A stretch of DNA of 64,000 bases from Candidatus Vallotiella sp. (ex Adelges kitamiensis) (lineage in GTDB: Bacteria; Pseudomonadota; Gammaproteobacteria; Burkholderiales; Burkholderiaceae): assembly GCF_020342435.1 (NCBI RefSeq), contig NZ_CP080504.1, positions 945,081 to 1,009,080 on the forward strand, written 5' to 3'. The position numbers and the translations under genes were made by a program. Each line of letters opens with the position of its first letter. Position 1 is the first letter of the stretch. Below are positions 20,054 through 46,707 of the stretch, piece by piece. Below the pieces are notes generated by a model. That model saw nothing but the letters and a program-made list of their open reading frames with translations. It ran no database searches and was not told where the DNA came from.

Positions 20054-20077
20054 TATACTACTTTTAAAAGTAGTATA
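20054..20077. repeat. 24-bp perfect palindrome
   Basis: Twelve bases on each side of 20065/20066 (TATACTACTTTT / AAAAGTAGTATA) are exact reverse complements with no loop. It lies in non-coding DNA between lipA and gshB. Confidence 0.85.
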
Positions 20078-22945: not shown

Positions 22946-22973
22946 CTATATTTTCAGCTAGCTGAAAATATAG
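22946..22973. repeat. 28-bp perfect palindrome
   Basis: CTATATTTTCAGCT (22946-22959) is directly followed by its exact reverse complement (22960-22973). No spacer. Located in dead DNA between lipB and the ybeD pseudogene. Confidence 0.9.
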
Positions 22974-39973: not shown

Positions 39974-40908
39974 TACTTTTCGACAAATTCTAGCTTAGAA
40001 TATTCCCCGTAATAAAGCTAATCCATATAAATAATAGTAATATTCGAATCGTTGCATGAAACACTCAGTACTACAGATCATGCAACTAAAACATGATATT
40101 TAAACAAATATCAAGTCCTGGATATAATCTTAGGTTAAAGTCATTAGGCTATAGAGCTATACTATGTGATAGGCCTGTTTAGAGAGCGCACTGGGCTCTA
40201 ATTTCTGCACTACCAGATTAACTACCCCTATAATCTTGAGATCTCATTCTATGAAAACAGAGTTGTGTTGGTCATAAACCAGAAAATAAATACTACGTTA
40301 CAAAAGCCATTATTTTGGCGCAATCACTTTATATACCGCGCTTTACCTAAATTTTTGCTAGAAGTGAACTACCTATAGCTGGTCAAAACTATACGCTATA
40401 ACAAAGATTAACTCTATCTTCAGATCGAAAACACAACATAGTATAAGAGCTATATGAGTACGATCAAATTATTTTTGAACCCTAACCTAGCTCATCAGTA
40501 GTTTACTTACTTATTATAAATAATAAACTATATTAATGTTGTCTAAGTTTACGCCTATAACTGCGAGCATAATAAGCTTGAGCAAGGAAATCGATGCACT
40601 TACATGCAGGGGCCTTATATCATTTAATACTCTCCTATGAAACCTGGAGAAAAACTAAAGTTAGTTTATTGTAGAAGTCTTATATTGAGACTCAATTCAA
40701 TTTGAACTAACGCACATCTAATATAACTGACAAAAGTTGGCTTATTATGTTCGGATACGCCTTCACACACTGTCTTCGAATTTTGTTGAAAGTCTCCCAA
40801 CCGAACGCTTATCTGAGAAAGATAAGGGACTAATCTTAATGCCCTGAAATGATATGCATAGATTCGCTCTTGAGCGCATATTGATAAATAACTTTTTGTA
40901 TAGCTATT
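39974..40908. other. Spacer downstream of bioD
   Basis: About 935 bases. bioB would be expected here in Burkholderia, but I find no trace of its Fe-S motif or other conserved blocks. Nothing else recognised. Confidence 0.45.
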
Positions 40909-40984
<76 letters not shown>

Positions 40985-41540
40985 AAGCAATACTCCGATT
41001 ATGCAGTAGTATGGATTAAGAAAGCAAGATATTACTCCCGCTTTTATAAGCTTCACTAGCATTTTAACTATATTTATTAGTCTTACTCAATTCAAAGTAC
41101 GCTAGTATTGTAAATACTACCGATACTTTTTGTTTTATCCAGAACGATCTTCTTAATAACTCTCTCCTTAAACGCTGCTACATTTACTCTCTACTATTAA
41201 TTGATGATAGCAAGCTTGAACTAACAAGTTCAGCCTTGACTGACCATACAATAAAAACACGTACTCTGCTTCGAAAATTTTTTATTTGTTTACTCAATTC
41301 TTATTAGAATTAGTTACTGTAAGTAAGGGTGATACCTACGCTTAGAATATAGGCCTCTACTAAGTTAGTGGAATTACCCTTATAGTTAAATTCTATACCA
41401 ACCTATACGACTCATCTCACTCATCAATTTGATTTCTCCTGTATGCAACTTGATTTATAAGCTTTAAACACACGGGCTAGATTTTGATTAAGCGATTATG
41501 GTTATCCTTGCTAGTAGCGCTGTGCCTACTGTTGACCCTG
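40985..41540. other. Spacer between tRNA-Ala and the BON gene
   Basis: About 556 bases, no gene recognised. In Burkholderia a cytochrome c gene follows the BON gene; no CxxCH coding motif was noticed here. Confidence 0.4.
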
Positions 41541-42203
41541 TTAATTTTTTGGTGTGCGCTTAGACATCAGTGTGATGCGGTATACTGCAGTTGATGTAGG
41601 TATCTTTGTATCTTCAAACCTTACATATTGAAAAAGTTGAACGACTCGCTTCACACCAGCTACCTGACTGACGATCTCTGATCCTAAATTGCCTTCACGA
41701 ACGGTTACCAAGCCCATTAGATAGACAGTGCCATGCTCCGTAGTCCATTTATAATAATTAGATGAAATATCTTTGCTTCCAAGCAACGCAGCTTGCACCT
41801 TGCTGCTAATATATATATCTCTAATACGTGAAGAAAACGAGCTCACCGGCTCTACTACGAGTTCATTAGCAATGCTACTCACGTTACTTATACTACGCCC
41901 GATCGACTCGACTTTTTGCTTTACAGCTTCATCCGGCACTTCTCCAGTTAAGAGCAGGCGACGATTATAAACTGTCACATTGACGTGAGCAGTTTCCGGT
42001 AGTGAATTTCTCATCTGATTCAATGTCTTAATTTGTATTTCGCGGTCCTCTGTCTGAGCCCCAAATGTACGCCGATCAACAGCCATTAGCGTACCACTAG
42101 CAGCAGCTCCTAATAATAAGAAGCCACAGCCATGGAGTGATAATGCAAGAGTTGCAGCTAGCCCTGATAACATAAGCGTTTTATAGACGTGATTATTAAT
42201 CAT
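41541..42203 (-). CDS. BON-domain lipoprotein (YraP/DolP-like)
   Basis: Signal peptide with lipobox LHGC (Cys26), then two BON domains (about residues 45-115 and 125-200), the outer-membrane dual-BON layout of DolP, which supports envelope integrity. 220 aa. ATG 42203 has AAGGAAGG about eight bases upstream. The Burkholderia neighbours gmhA and yraN that should precede it are missing. Confidence 0.9.
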   Translation of the reverse strand: MINNHVYKTLMLSGLAATLALSLHGCGFLLLGAAASGTLMAVDRRTFGAQTEDREIQIKTLNQMRNSLPETAHVNVTVYNRRLLLTGEVPDEAVKQKVESIGRSISNVSSIANELVVEPVSSFSSRIRDIYISSKVQAALLGSKDISSNYYKWTTEHGTVYLMGLVTVREGNLGSEIVSQVAGVKRVVQLFQYVRFEDTKIPTSTAVYRITLMSKRTPKN

Positions 42204-42742
42204 CGATAAACCTTCCTTGGTTTGAGTAGTCTTTTTTGAAAGACATAATATTAATCTCAGTCTAATAGCGATAGATTATTATCAACTGTAACTTATGAAT
42301 CTGATCTTGACACCGCTGAAATATATAAATATAGATGTTAATATTAATCAGTAGAAAAACAGCCCGCTATCCGCCACGCAGCTGAGCATAGGCGTGAATA
42401 TCAGGTCATATACTTGTGTATCTCAACACCGATAGATACTTCAACATATCCTCAGAATCCCGACATCAATCTCGCGAGATTGATGTCGGGATTCTGCGAC
42501 AATGTACCCTAGTGCACCGGCGACACATATTACACGCTACTAGTATCAACCCGTAGTAGCTAAAACCAAAATAGAGCAAGATAGCACATGCATCTTAAAA
42601 TAAGACTGACAGCCTTCTTGAAGACCCCCGGTACAAAATTTACCATTTCCGCTACCCTCACGTAAGGTGAAGGTGGCGGTCTCTACACCGGATCGTGAAA
42701 ATAACAAGCCTTCTGTTACTTATCATCTTTCTAAGGTATTCC
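42204..42742. other. Divergent spacer, BON gene to rsmI, with a long palindrome
   Basis: Where Burkholderia has gmhA and yraN. No convincing remnant of either is readable. The 44-bp palindrome at 42453-42496 is the main feature. Divergent promoters must be here. Confidence 0.5.
42453..42496. repeat. 44-bp perfect gapless palindrome
   Basis: 42453-42474 (beginning CAGAATCCCGACATC) is exactly reverse-complementary to 42475-42496, centre CG/CG, no spacer and no mismatch. Neighbouring bases do not extend it. More GC-rich than the DNA around it. No T-run follows on either strand. Confidence 0.97.
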
Positions 42743-43645
42743 TTGATCAATCACTTTGCGTCCACTAAGAACCAGAGCTATCCGACCTCAACGCTTTATG
42801 TAACGGCAACGCCAATTGGAAATTGCTCTGATATTACACTGCGCGCGTTACATGTTCTCGCGCTAGTAGACCGCATTGCAGCAGAAGATACTCGCCACAC
42901 AGCGCAACTTCTTGCGCGTTACAACATCACACGCCCATTGATATCGCTTCATAAATACAATGAACGCGAAACTGCACAGCGTATCGTTAATTTTTTACAC
43001 ATGGGAGAGCGTATAGCATACGTATCTGACGCAGGAACGCCTGGTATCTCAGATCCAGGGGCGCGGCTAGTTGATACAGTACGCAAGGCGGGACTACGCT
43101 TGATGCCAATACCAGGCGCTAGCGCAGTAACTGCCGCGCTAAGTGTAACTGGTGATTGGGCTAGTACGTTTACCTTCGTCGGCTTTTTACCAACTAAACC
43201 CAGGCATCGGACCGCTCGGCTTCGAGTACTAGCGTCACGCAAAGAAGCACTTGTTTTTTATGAGGCGCCGCACCGTGCTCTTGAGACCGCTCGCGCGCTA
43301 GCCGAAACACTTGGTCCATCACGCCGAATGCTAATCGCGCGAGAAATGACTAAGCTACACGAGAGTCTACACCAGTGCATGCTTTCCGAAGGACAGGAAT
43401 GGCTCACTTTAGATCCAAATCGACTGCGGGGGGAGCTGATTCTTGTGGTTGAAGGTGCTATTGCACCAGTACAGTATATTGTACATCAGCGTGATGCGAT
43501 ACTTACAATGTGCCTAAGTGAGATGCCACTTAGCGCTGCAGTTAAACTAACAGTTGCATTAACAGGTGCATCACATAATGTGATCTATACGCGCGCACTA
43601 GAACTAAAAAAGTATAGATCAAGCAAGATATGTGCTGAGATATAA
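42743..43645 (+). CDS. rsmI: 16S rRNA (cytidine1402-2'-O)-methyltransferase RsmI
   Basis: Methylates C1402 of 16S rRNA in the decoding centre. LYVTATPIGNCSDITLRAL, IAAEDTRHTAQLLARY, VSDAGTPGISDPGARLV and FYEAPHRALE are the family signatures. Start placed at TTG 42743: AAGG lies six bases upstream and the distance to YPTSTLYV equals that in the Burkholderia protein as I recall it. The alternative GTG 42695 would add a hydrophobic 16-residue leader that makes no sense for a cytosolic enzyme. 300 aa. Confidence 0.94.
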   Translation: MINHFASTKNQSYPTSTLYVTATPIGNCSDITLRALHVLALVDRIAAEDTRHTAQLLARYNITRPLISLHKYNERETAQRIVNFLHMGERIAYVSDAGTPGISDPGARLVDTVRKAGLRLMPIPGASAVTAALSVTGDWASTFTFVGFLPTKPRHRTARLRVLASRKEALVFYEAPHRALETARALAETLGPSRRMLIAREMTKLHESLHQCMLSEGQEWLTLDPNRLRGELILVVEGAIAPVQYIVHQRDAILTMCLSEMPLSAAVKLTVALTGASHNVIYTRALELKKYRSSKICAEI

Positions 43646-44158
43646 CCCTCTAACAGCACCCGAAGTTAAACTAATCTAGCCAATATTAGGTATTGTTACG
43701 ACATCTTCTTTGCTCAGAAAGACTTTTGGGCGAAACTTTACCGAGTCTAAAATTTTGTTACTTAAGTATAGTAGCTTAAAATTGTTCAGTATCAGTACTT
43801 ATTCTTAAGCAAGTACACAGACTACAATAGTCAACGTATTCTTATCTAAATGCTTACTGTTTGTATGATAAACTAGCGTTGAAAATGACGGTAATTTAAT
43901 TACAGTTTTTTAAGGAAAATATCTCGATTATATAGCAGTCCGCTACGTTACGTGCACTTTCGACTAGTAATTCGAAGCTTAATAAAAGAGTATTATGTTC
44001 GACTATACCAGCTAATAAAAATTTATTATTAAACCCATTTGACGCGATTATTCTTTCTGTGGAAAATCACTGAAAGTTATACAAATGCACAGACCAAAAT
44101 ATACTGACCATAATGTGTGCTTCACTCACTTAACTGCTGCAATACGCCTTCAAACCCG
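43646..44158. other. Spacer between rsmI and the MBL gene
   Basis: About 510 AT-rich bases; no gene or clear structure seen. Confidence 0.4.
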
Positions 44159-44806
44159 ATGCAAGTTAAGCTGATTCCCGTTACCGCTTTTATGCAAAAC
44201 TGTTCACTGCTCGTATGTGAAAAGACAATGCATGCTGCTATTGTCGATCCAGGGGGGGATCTGGATTTAATCCAGACGCAAGTACAAAAGAGTGATGCAA
44301 GTGTAGAAAAAGTGTTATTGACACACGGACATGTTGACCATTGCGCGGGTGCGAGTGCATTAGCAGCTCACTACGGTGTGCCTATTGAGGGACCGCATCC
44401 AGACGAGAAATTTTGGTTATCATTATTGCCACAACAGAGCACAGTTTTTGGCCTTCCTCAAGTACAAACATGTGCGCCAGACCGCTGGCTATACGATGGC
44501 GATACTGTACAGTTTGGTCATGAGGTACTAGAGGTTATTCACTGTCCAGGACATACGCCCGGGCACATTGTTTTTTTTAGTCGAAAAAGTCGACTTGCGC
44601 TAGTCGGTGATGTATTGTTCTCGGGATCGATTGGAAGAACAGATTTCCCGCGCAGTAATCATATAGACCTTATCTTGTCGATTCGAAATAAGCTATGGCC
44701 ACTCGGGGACGACGTACGCTTCATCCCTGGACATGGTCCAATGTCCTCCTTTGGAGAAGAGCGACACACGAACCCATATGTTAAAAACTACGTCACTGCT
44801 AGTTAA
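44159..44806 (+). CDS. MBL-fold metallo-hydrolase (glyoxalase II-like)
   Basis: 215-aa metallo-beta-lactamase-fold hydrolase. Metal ligands in THGHVDHC (HxHxDH), [14 protein letters not shown] and the final PGHGP. It belongs to the YcbL/glyoxalase-II-like group; the substrate, probably a thioester, is not determined. Start at ATG 44159 ([11 protein letters not shown]) matches the family; an upstream ATG 44117 is less likely. The exonuclease gene starts 11 bases after it. Confidence 0.92.
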
Positions 44807-44817
44807 CTAAATATTTA

Positions 44818-45492
44818 ATGGATGAAATCTATATCAGCACTGATATCGAAGCTGACGGCCCAATTCCGGGTCCACATTCGATGCTAAGCTTCGCATCTGC
44901 GGCTTATACGGAAAGTAAACAATTAACTGCTACGTTCTCTGCTAACTTAAAAACATTGCCTGGTGCGTTCCCACACCCATTTCAGGATGCGTGGTGGAAG
45001 ACACAGCCCGATGCTTGGGTGGCATGCCATAAAGATATACGTTCGCCTGAAGAAGCACTACCCGCTTATGTTGATTGGGTTGAAGCTTTACCTGGAAAGC
45101 CTGTTTTTGTAGCCTATCCGGCCGGATTTGACTTTACGTTCATGTTCTGGTATATGATGCGTTTTGCTGGCCGCTGCCCATTTTCTTGGTCAGCATTGGA
45201 TATTAAGACGCTAGCATTTTCAATGACCGGGTTACCTTATCGAAAAGCAATTAAGCCACGTTTGCCAAAAACCTGGTTTGATACAGATCTGCATACGCAC
45301 ATTGCGCTTGATGATGCTATTGAACAAGGAGCGTTATTTTGCAACATGCTTTCAGAGTTACGTATCCGCCAGACAATATTTTCCAAATGGCAGGCGGAGA
45401 TAACAAATAGAGAACCTGAGAAAAAAACGCCTTTTTCTTCAACAGTAAACCTAACGGAAAGCCTTATAGAACCCGAGACAAAATTAAAATAG
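44818..45492 (+). CDS. DEDD-family 3'-5' exonuclease-like protein
   Basis: Begins with the ExoI motif STDIEADGP, has [15 protein letters not shown] in the ExoII position, and [11 protein letters not shown] as ExoIII, consistent with an RNase H-fold DEDDh exonuclease. 224 aa with a low-complexity polar tail of ~35 residues. Eleven bases behind the MBL gene, so cotranscribed. Substrate (RNA or DNA) unknown. Confidence 0.85.
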
Positions 45493-46707
45493 TCAGAAAA
45501 TAGGTATAAGCTCACTAAATTAGTTAACCGCTACGTTTCTAGTGTGTAGATAATCCCAGCCCAATATAACGCATCACTGCTAAATAGAGTATTATGATAA
45601 TCTGTTGGTCAAAGCACCGCCCTACTACATCAGTATATGCTAAAGTTTACGCTCTAGAAGTTGTTAGTATTCCTAGATAAATATAGCAGCTTAGTCTCTC
45701 CGTCGATTACGACCTTTTGATACTCTATACCTGTGCTACTACTAACCGTTTGACTATCGACAGAGTCATCCCCAGAAGAGGATGAGATAAACCCCTAAAG
45801 ATAGGCGGGTAATATGAACAGTCAGCAAATAATATTGCATACGTCTTGTAACATACTAAATTATATACTACTTTTGTAGTGACCTATTTTTACACTGATC
45901 TGCTCTGATCACCCTTAGATTGTTAATATTAATCTTTCTAAGCAATGACATTCTTTTTAGGAATCACGGCCTGTGCAAAACTGGGACGCTTTAACGTATT
46001 TTCTCCTTCCTTTTATCCTATAGCATATAAGTAATCAGCAAGCTTGCTACTACATATATCCACTAATAGGTAAAGCTAATTCCCTCACTAGGTGGATCTT
46101 TATATCTTGATTAGATTAAAGTAGTCGCTCTGTAATAAAGTTCTGCTAGTTATTACTGTTAATCAATCATATCTCAATACGGAAAAGCAAAGCTGTATAA
46201 TGTCTTAGCCCACGTTTAAGATTAGTTTTATAAACCTATAGTCAAATCCAAGGGCAATAGTAATACATAGCATATTATTTAGTCGTAATTACACCACAGA
46301 CATTTGGATTGATAGCATAGTGAAATCTACATTTAGCATCAGTATGAGGTCACGTGTTACGGGAGTGCATATTAAATTAGAATCATACATAGATTTCTCA
46401 TCCTATAGCTTCAGTAGAAGAATTTATACATTCAGTTTATAGATATGTATATATATTATTAATGAGCGCCAACATAACTACGTTAACCCTTATCCAGACA
46501 AACATACTCTGCAGTTCTATACTGCATAGTACTGGCTATTAGAACTACGCACATAATGGGAGAGTTTTTATTGATGACTGAATATAATGAAGAAAACTTC
46601 GCTCGCACAATTGCGTATAGGTATTCACGTGCCAGATAAGTAATTAAATTCGATATAAAATTACTGATTTGAGTGATAGCATCGTCCTTAAGAAAACTAT
46701 GCTTACA
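45493..46707. other. Convergent spacer, exonuclease gene to cation exporter gene
   Basis: About 1.2 kb of non-coding AT-rich sequence; no gene recognised. It shares the 15-base string TTATATACTACTTTT (45870-45884) with the palindrome at 20051-20065, probably by chance. Confidence 0.45.

Follow-up and report, generated by a model that had tools for sequence, protein, structure and literature searches.

How does a sequence that pairs perfectly with itself over 44 bp, with nothing between its two arms, come to stand between two genes of a small bacterial genome? The genome is that of Candidatus Vallotiella (G000), which totals 1.17 Mb in two contigs (1,105,254 bases and, by difference, 67,397). 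By the window we mean the whole stretch of 64,000 nucleotides that was analysed, and coordinates are those of the window unless stated. The features from which the question arises are these.

41541 to 42203, minus strand: BON-domain gene (PF04972), open, from open reading frame and domain.
42453 to 42496, no strand: perfect gapless palindrome of 44 bp, from the sequence.
42453 to 42474, no strand: left arm of the palindrome, perhaps the newly copied one (direction not settled), from filler fit to relatives.
42475 to 42496, no strand: right arm, perhaps the older one and derived from yraN, from filler fit to relatives.
42695 to 43645, plus strand: rsmI open reading frame (PF00590, PF23016), from open reading frame and domain; relatives were matched by a query starting at 42761.

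The two arms at 42453-42496, CAGAATCCCGACATCAATCTCG and CGAGATTGATGTCGGGATTCTG, pair at 22 of 22 positions and leave no loop, exactly as the first-pass annotation of this DNA had described them. Its judgement that such a repeat is far beyond chance in 64 kb is also sound. Arms of 22 nt are expected about 4e-9 times by simple arithmetic (~64000 x 0.25^22), while a first-order Markov model of the window, resampled 40 times, gave a mean of 0.00, as printed, for arms of at least 12. The palindrome is the longest gapless one in the window, the next having arms of 14, 12 and 11. We are doubtful, at a length of 44 bp, of the accompanying remark that such sequences are normally unstable: strong instability of palindromes concerns lengths well above this.

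The locus was compared with that of seven same-genus genomes. Three of these are small (G002, G004 and G005) and are grouped below with G000; the other four are large Mycetohabitans genomes of 3.3-3.8 Mb (G001, G003, G006 and G007). Judged by size and kinship, G004 and G005 presumably belong to symbionts as well. Members of Mycetohabitans are described as inhabiting fungi (PMC12696581), and the large genomes should not be called free-living. In Mycetohabitans endofungorum, whose rsmI product shares 79% identity with that of G000, the same place is occupied by yraN (UPF0102), gmhA (SIS_2) and BON on the minus strand, with rsmI divergent. The window has no open reading frame of at least 80 codons between BON and rsmI, and its longest open stretch on the minus strand there is 57 codons. 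The corresponding stretch measures 53 codons in G004, 50 in G002 and 126 in G005, and the four large genomes have 230 to 280 codons open. The domain matches confirm BON and rsmI as the flanking genes, and the proposal that gmhA and yraN were lost here agrees both with the presence of the two genes in M. endofungorum and with an alignment of the palindrome's right flank to yraN, given below. BON itself, open in the window, is broken up upstream of rsmI in G002 (L009) and G004 (L008), and in G005 it is uninterrupted within the part compared. A different perfect palindrome, of 24 bp, adjoins the broken BON of G004, some 500 bases upstream of rsmI (L008:979-1002).

What the palindrome was inserted into, or formed from, can be approached through its flanks.

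42497 to 42566, minus strand: remnant of yraN (UPF0102) in the right flank, from alignment to large genomes.
42420 to 42452, minus strand: possible remnant of yraN (FVEV codons) in the left flank, weak, from a collinear match.

The 70 bases to the right of the palindrome are identical to yraN of the four large Mycetohabitans at 42 to 45 of 64 positions, and in each of the four none of 500 shuffles aligned as well. For the small genomes, shuffles as good numbered 3 of 500 (G002), 19 of 500 (G004) and 165 of 500 (G005). By these alignments, the right flank appears to keep its order and strand relative to yraN. Looking for the same arm throughout the genome and in relatives, a check that the first-pass annotation had proposed, shows that the 22-base arm is single-copy in its own genome when up to 3 mismatches are allowed, and that a counterpart of the 44-bp palindrome is lacking at the equivalent place in all seven same-genus genomes. 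The perfect inverted repeat at 42453-42496 is thus derived in one lineage. The same two results go against the suggestion that it is a recombinase or regulator site.

The left flank gives a collinear match to the FVEV codons of yraN at 11 of 14 positions in G006 and G007. This match is weak: 178 of 2000 shuffles were as good when summed over six relatives (G005, in which the right flank has no trustworthy placement, is omitted from the sum), and in unrestricted alignments of the left flank 16 to 429 of 500 shuffles were as good across the seven relatives. If both anchors are right, they enclose about 24 to 28 bases in the relatives versus 47 in the window. Given the weakness of the left flank, a net gain close to one arm (~22 bases) is only suggested.

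Which part of the palindrome is older was addressed by scoring candidate fillers between the flanks on the relatives, against 2000 shuffled fillers. When the sole filler was the right arm, shuffles did as well in 48 of 2000 cases on the three small relatives, 680 on the four large and 220 on all seven; with the left arm, the counts were 1171, 1374 and 1424, and with the central 22 bases removed they were 14, 48 and 11. The last form, which joins the outer halves of both arms, is the best filler overall, and only 4 of 2000 random palindromes equal it on the seven relatives. It beats the right arm alone on the three small relatives together, yet in G002 and G004 taken individually it is the right arm that scores higher. 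Models with one arm only were set aside, as their fits are uneven across relatives. A cruder scan in which any 22 bases were removed never raised the summed score; removal of the left arm gave -27.5, and the best removal, at 42564-42585, gave -3.0. An origin of the arm from the yraN codons for RFDIV was dropped after alignment with relatives. The filler fits leave two possibilities, copying of the right arm or the widening, outwards from the centre, of an imperfect repeat that was already there; they settle neither which arm served as template nor how many bases were gained at 42453-42496.

That the best-fitting removal is a central 22-bp stretch, itself palindromic, is also what might be expected had a mobile palindromic element been inserted here, or had a recombinase left a site behind. 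We consider this very improbable: there is no second genomic copy within 3 mismatches, the exact 20-mer is absent from the viral contigs searched, and the plasmid matches (12 records, with E of at least 2) are taken as chance. A search with the 16-base core, allowing up to 2 mismatches, returned scattered two-mismatch matches in five of the seven relatives, against three of seven for a reversed control. REP/BIME or other mobile palindromic repeats were rejected, as these require many copies and one was found (up to 3 mismatches).

Nor do we find much to recommend a functional element, which would be either an operator for a dimeric regulator between the divergent BON and rsmI genes or a hairpin in a transcript, such as a small RNA or a leader. 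The site does lie between divergent genes, and the hairpin is predicted to be very stable (a 91-nt RNA folds at -38.6 kcal/mol, z -7.1), but the palindrome's single copy and its absence from the relatives weigh against both forms of the proposal, as do the 3 promoter-like matches, to be compared with 1.6 in shuffles. Binding sites for dimers need less than a 22-bp perfect arm. The sole Rfam match over the palindrome, to the microRNA family MIR2871, has a score of 24.8 where the gathering score is 99, and is rejected for falling below it; nothing beyond this sub-threshold match was found in Rfam over 40000-45500. The stretch 42200-42800 contains nothing that resembles a terminator, and neither end of the palindrome is followed by a run of T, so the earlier statement that a missing U-tract excludes a standard terminator stands; we rejected an intrinsic terminator on these two grounds and on its placement between divergent genes. 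As for a double-stranded RNA element, also suggested at first pass, a transcript would indeed fold strongly, but no conservation of the hairpin was found, and any hairpin RNA may be a by-product of the palindrome. Conservation, terminator pattern and RNA families at threshold thus give no sign of a function, which we regard as improbable, though less so than a mobile origin.

An artefact of assembly or of the library, in the form of a fold-back chimera, is a further explanation that we think has very little chance of being correct. According to parts of PMC8857208, the assembly of Ca. V. lariciata was made from short reads, which would lend the idea some weight if that is the genome in question, but the largest k-mer given there is 127, well over the 44 bp of the palindrome. 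A fold-back would moreover continue on the other strand, whereas the right flank keeps its direction through rsmI; because the right-hand sequence proceeds in its original direction, a fold-back appears unlikely. Two similar palindromes, described below, lie within open reading frames, which again is not what an artefact would lead one to expect.

We favour a different account, and consider it probable, namely that the palindrome is the mutational scar of a replication template switch inside the yraN remnant. Much of its support is drawn from other loci, described below. In the decaying yraN of this lineage, the growing strand would have left its template during replication and copied nearby sequence backwards, with either itself or the sister strand as the template. 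Its return to the template would have produced two perfectly complementary arms and perhaps some 22 extra bases, and a pre-existing weak inverted repeat may have guided the switch. Among the options listed by the first-pass annotation, a relic of an inverted duplication or strand switch fits best, with the reservation that we infer the switch itself, its direction and the lack of function from sequence comparison.

Such a switch has precedent, template switching at quasipalindromes being known from reporters, yeast and primate comparisons. In Escherichia coli, as described in sections of PMC7202029 and PMC6357072, template switches make quasipalindromes perfect or more perfect, and portions of PMC8604942 describe the same perfecting of inverted repeats in yeast genes. 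The systems that follow the Ripley model (the E. coli thyA hotspot and the lacZ QP reporters) share with our locus the conversion of an imperfect repeat into a perfect one, in which one arm templates the other (same passages of PMC7202029 and PMC6357072); here, unlike there, the event is read from a comparison of genomes, perhaps 22 or so bases were gained, and the repeat that preceded it is uncertain. In yeast, homogenisation of short inverted repeats likewise yields repeats that are perfect in the genes of one lineage and imperfect in relatives (PMC8604942, in part), whereas the present case is bacterial and gapless, with arms of up to 22 nt. Excerpts of PMC8794818 describe a template-switch origin of RNA hairpins, where one insertion event gives a new long perfect stem; our palindrome, in contrast, shows no sign of becoming an RNA gene.

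If the palindrome arose by a kind of mutation to which this genome is subject, others might be found elsewhere. We counted gapless palindromes in sampled stretches with overlaps removed, which amounted to 724 kb for the four small genomes and 508 kb for the large Mycetohabitans, with a first-order Markov expectation and mirror repeats as the control. In the small genomes there were 21 with arms of at least 10 (0.8 expected) and 11 with arms of at least 12 (0.05 expected), and in the large genomes 4 (2.05 expected) and none (0.25 expected). Of mirror repeats, the small genomes had 2 at the lower threshold and none at the higher, and the large genomes none at either. By genome, the counts for arms of at least 10 and at least 12 were 7 and 5 in 224 kb of G000, 2 and 1 in 140 kb of G002, 5 and 1 in 180 kb of G004, and 7 and 4 in 180 kb of G005; G002 alone had no excess at arms of at least 8 (3 versus 3.5 expected). 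Low-complexity rows had been dropped (3 small and 4 large for arms of at least 8, none for arms of at least 10). Within the sample, the small genomes really do carry more perfect palindromes than expected. Such an excess is not limited to small genomes, given that 140 kb of G017 (6.9 Mb) held 3 with arms of at least 10 (0.9 expected) and 2 with arms of at least 12 (0.10 expected). The counts at the two thresholds were 1 and 0 in 100 kb of G016 and 0 and 0 in 100 kb of G018, and in 60 kb of the tiny AT-rich G012 they were 5 (1.05 expected) and 2 (0.20 expected). A survey of bacterial inverted repeats counts 28 endosymbionts among its 200 richest genomes, according to a portion of PMC10434271.

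Part of the contrast between small and large genomes may reflect the amount of non-coding DNA in the former. Fourteen of the 21 palindromes with arms of at least 10 in the small genomes lie outside open reading frames of at least 150 codons (238 kb); such frames contain the other 7 (486 kb), as compared with 4 in 462 kb for the large genomes. Outside them, only 46 kb of the large genomes was sampled, with no palindromes of this size.

Eight other palindromes were examined individually: those at 205, 20054 and 22946 of the window, at L090:900 and L042:762 of G000, at L053:16972 and L097:1768 of G005, and at L081:1613 of G004. The three in the window, all found by the window scan, are as follows.

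205 to 226, no strand: perfect gapless palindrome with an arm of 11.
20054 to 20077, no strand: perfect gapless palindrome with an arm of 12.
22946 to 22973, no strand: perfect gapless palindrome with an arm of 14.

Orthologues could be aligned at four of the eight sites and in none of them is the palindrome perfect. At three of the four the orthologues are mostly imperfect palindromes, while at the remaining one pairing is at chance level. The 34-bp perfect palindrome at L090:900-933 (C1:800900-800933 of G000) lies in an open frame with Lum_binding domains, a gene that we take to be riboflavin synthase. The frame is uninterrupted; in eight orthologues, all of the same length, 6 to 12 of 17 positions pair, a match in G015 (L108) having been left out of this count. 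At L053:16972, a 28-bp palindrome falls within a 1409-codon open reading frame of G005; the site is 31 bases in the four large genomes (three longer), with 11-12 of 15 pairs, and in the small genomes 5, 8 and 9 of 15 pair, the 5 of G000 being the chance level. Of the 11 positions of the palindrome at 205-226, 8 pair in G004 and 7 in G002. Over L081:1613, only G000 and G002 align, and their 4 of 15 pairs are what chance gives. Three of the four aligned sites, with imperfect pairing in the orthologues, therefore have the appearance of repeats that became perfect, which is what the template-switch model predicts; the fourth lacks this pattern.

No orthologues of the remaining sites were aligned: none for 22946 and 20054 (only stretches L079-L086 were compared), none for L042:762 by genome search, and for L097:1768-1805, a perfect palindrome of 38 bp with arms of 19, nothing that matched in any of the seven other genomes of the genus. 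Both 22946-22973 and 20054-20077 lie in long stretches without open reading frames of 100 codons. The mitochondrial genes of Nematomorpha, as portions of PMC6649704 describe, resemble the two coding sites in containing perfect palindromes, but theirs are numerous and up to 284 bp long, as opposed to 28 and 34 bp in two open reading frames here.

What might let such repeats accumulate in the small genomes? All four large genomes have a full-length mutS, of which only short fragments interrupted by stops survive in each of the four small ones; in G000 these remains are at C1:423225-424196. Pseudogenes of mutS and mutL are reported for Vallotia in part of PMC8692619. Loss of mismatch repair may raise template-switch mutation here, as a possible contributor. 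The phrase 'mismatch repair' has 0 occurrences in the main text of the two E. coli template-switch papers (PMC7202029, PMC6357072), and in an excerpt of PMC9234803 loss of mutS cut the share of a hairpin-linked hotspot in Pseudomonas from 95% to 35%, yet the mutation occurred sooner. Two nucleases can be dismissed as the cause. No sbcD (TIGR00619) was found in any of the eight same-genus genomes, by a search whose control matched in 13 of 14 genomes and exceeded the cut-off in 8; since the large Mycetohabitans are among those that lack it, its loss cannot explain the difference between small and large genomes and was ruled out. xseA (TIGR00237) is above the cut-off in all eight, so loss of exonuclease VII was rejected as well.

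The 44-bp palindrome, then, is probably a scar of a known kind of mutation in a dead gene. Perfect palindromes are more numerous than expected in what was sampled of the small genomes, and this one is the longest; it is the excess, rather than the single scar, that makes the interesting part. Among the literature matches listed, as far as their text was available, there is no account of template switching as a shaper of endosymbiont genomes. We would offer, as a speculation that we ourselves rate as rather doubtful, that loss of mismatch repair in these small genomes leaves short switches uncorrected, such that the chromosomes steadily make short or imperfect inverted repeats perfect, whether the gene concerned is dead or alive. 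How many palindromes a genome has, and how long they are, would then mark its decay, the present one being the most extreme sampled. If the excess were to hold genome-wide and to track the loss of mutS, these symbionts would constitute a natural mutation-accumulation experiment for template switching, and perfect palindromes in decayed DNA would require no functional explanation.
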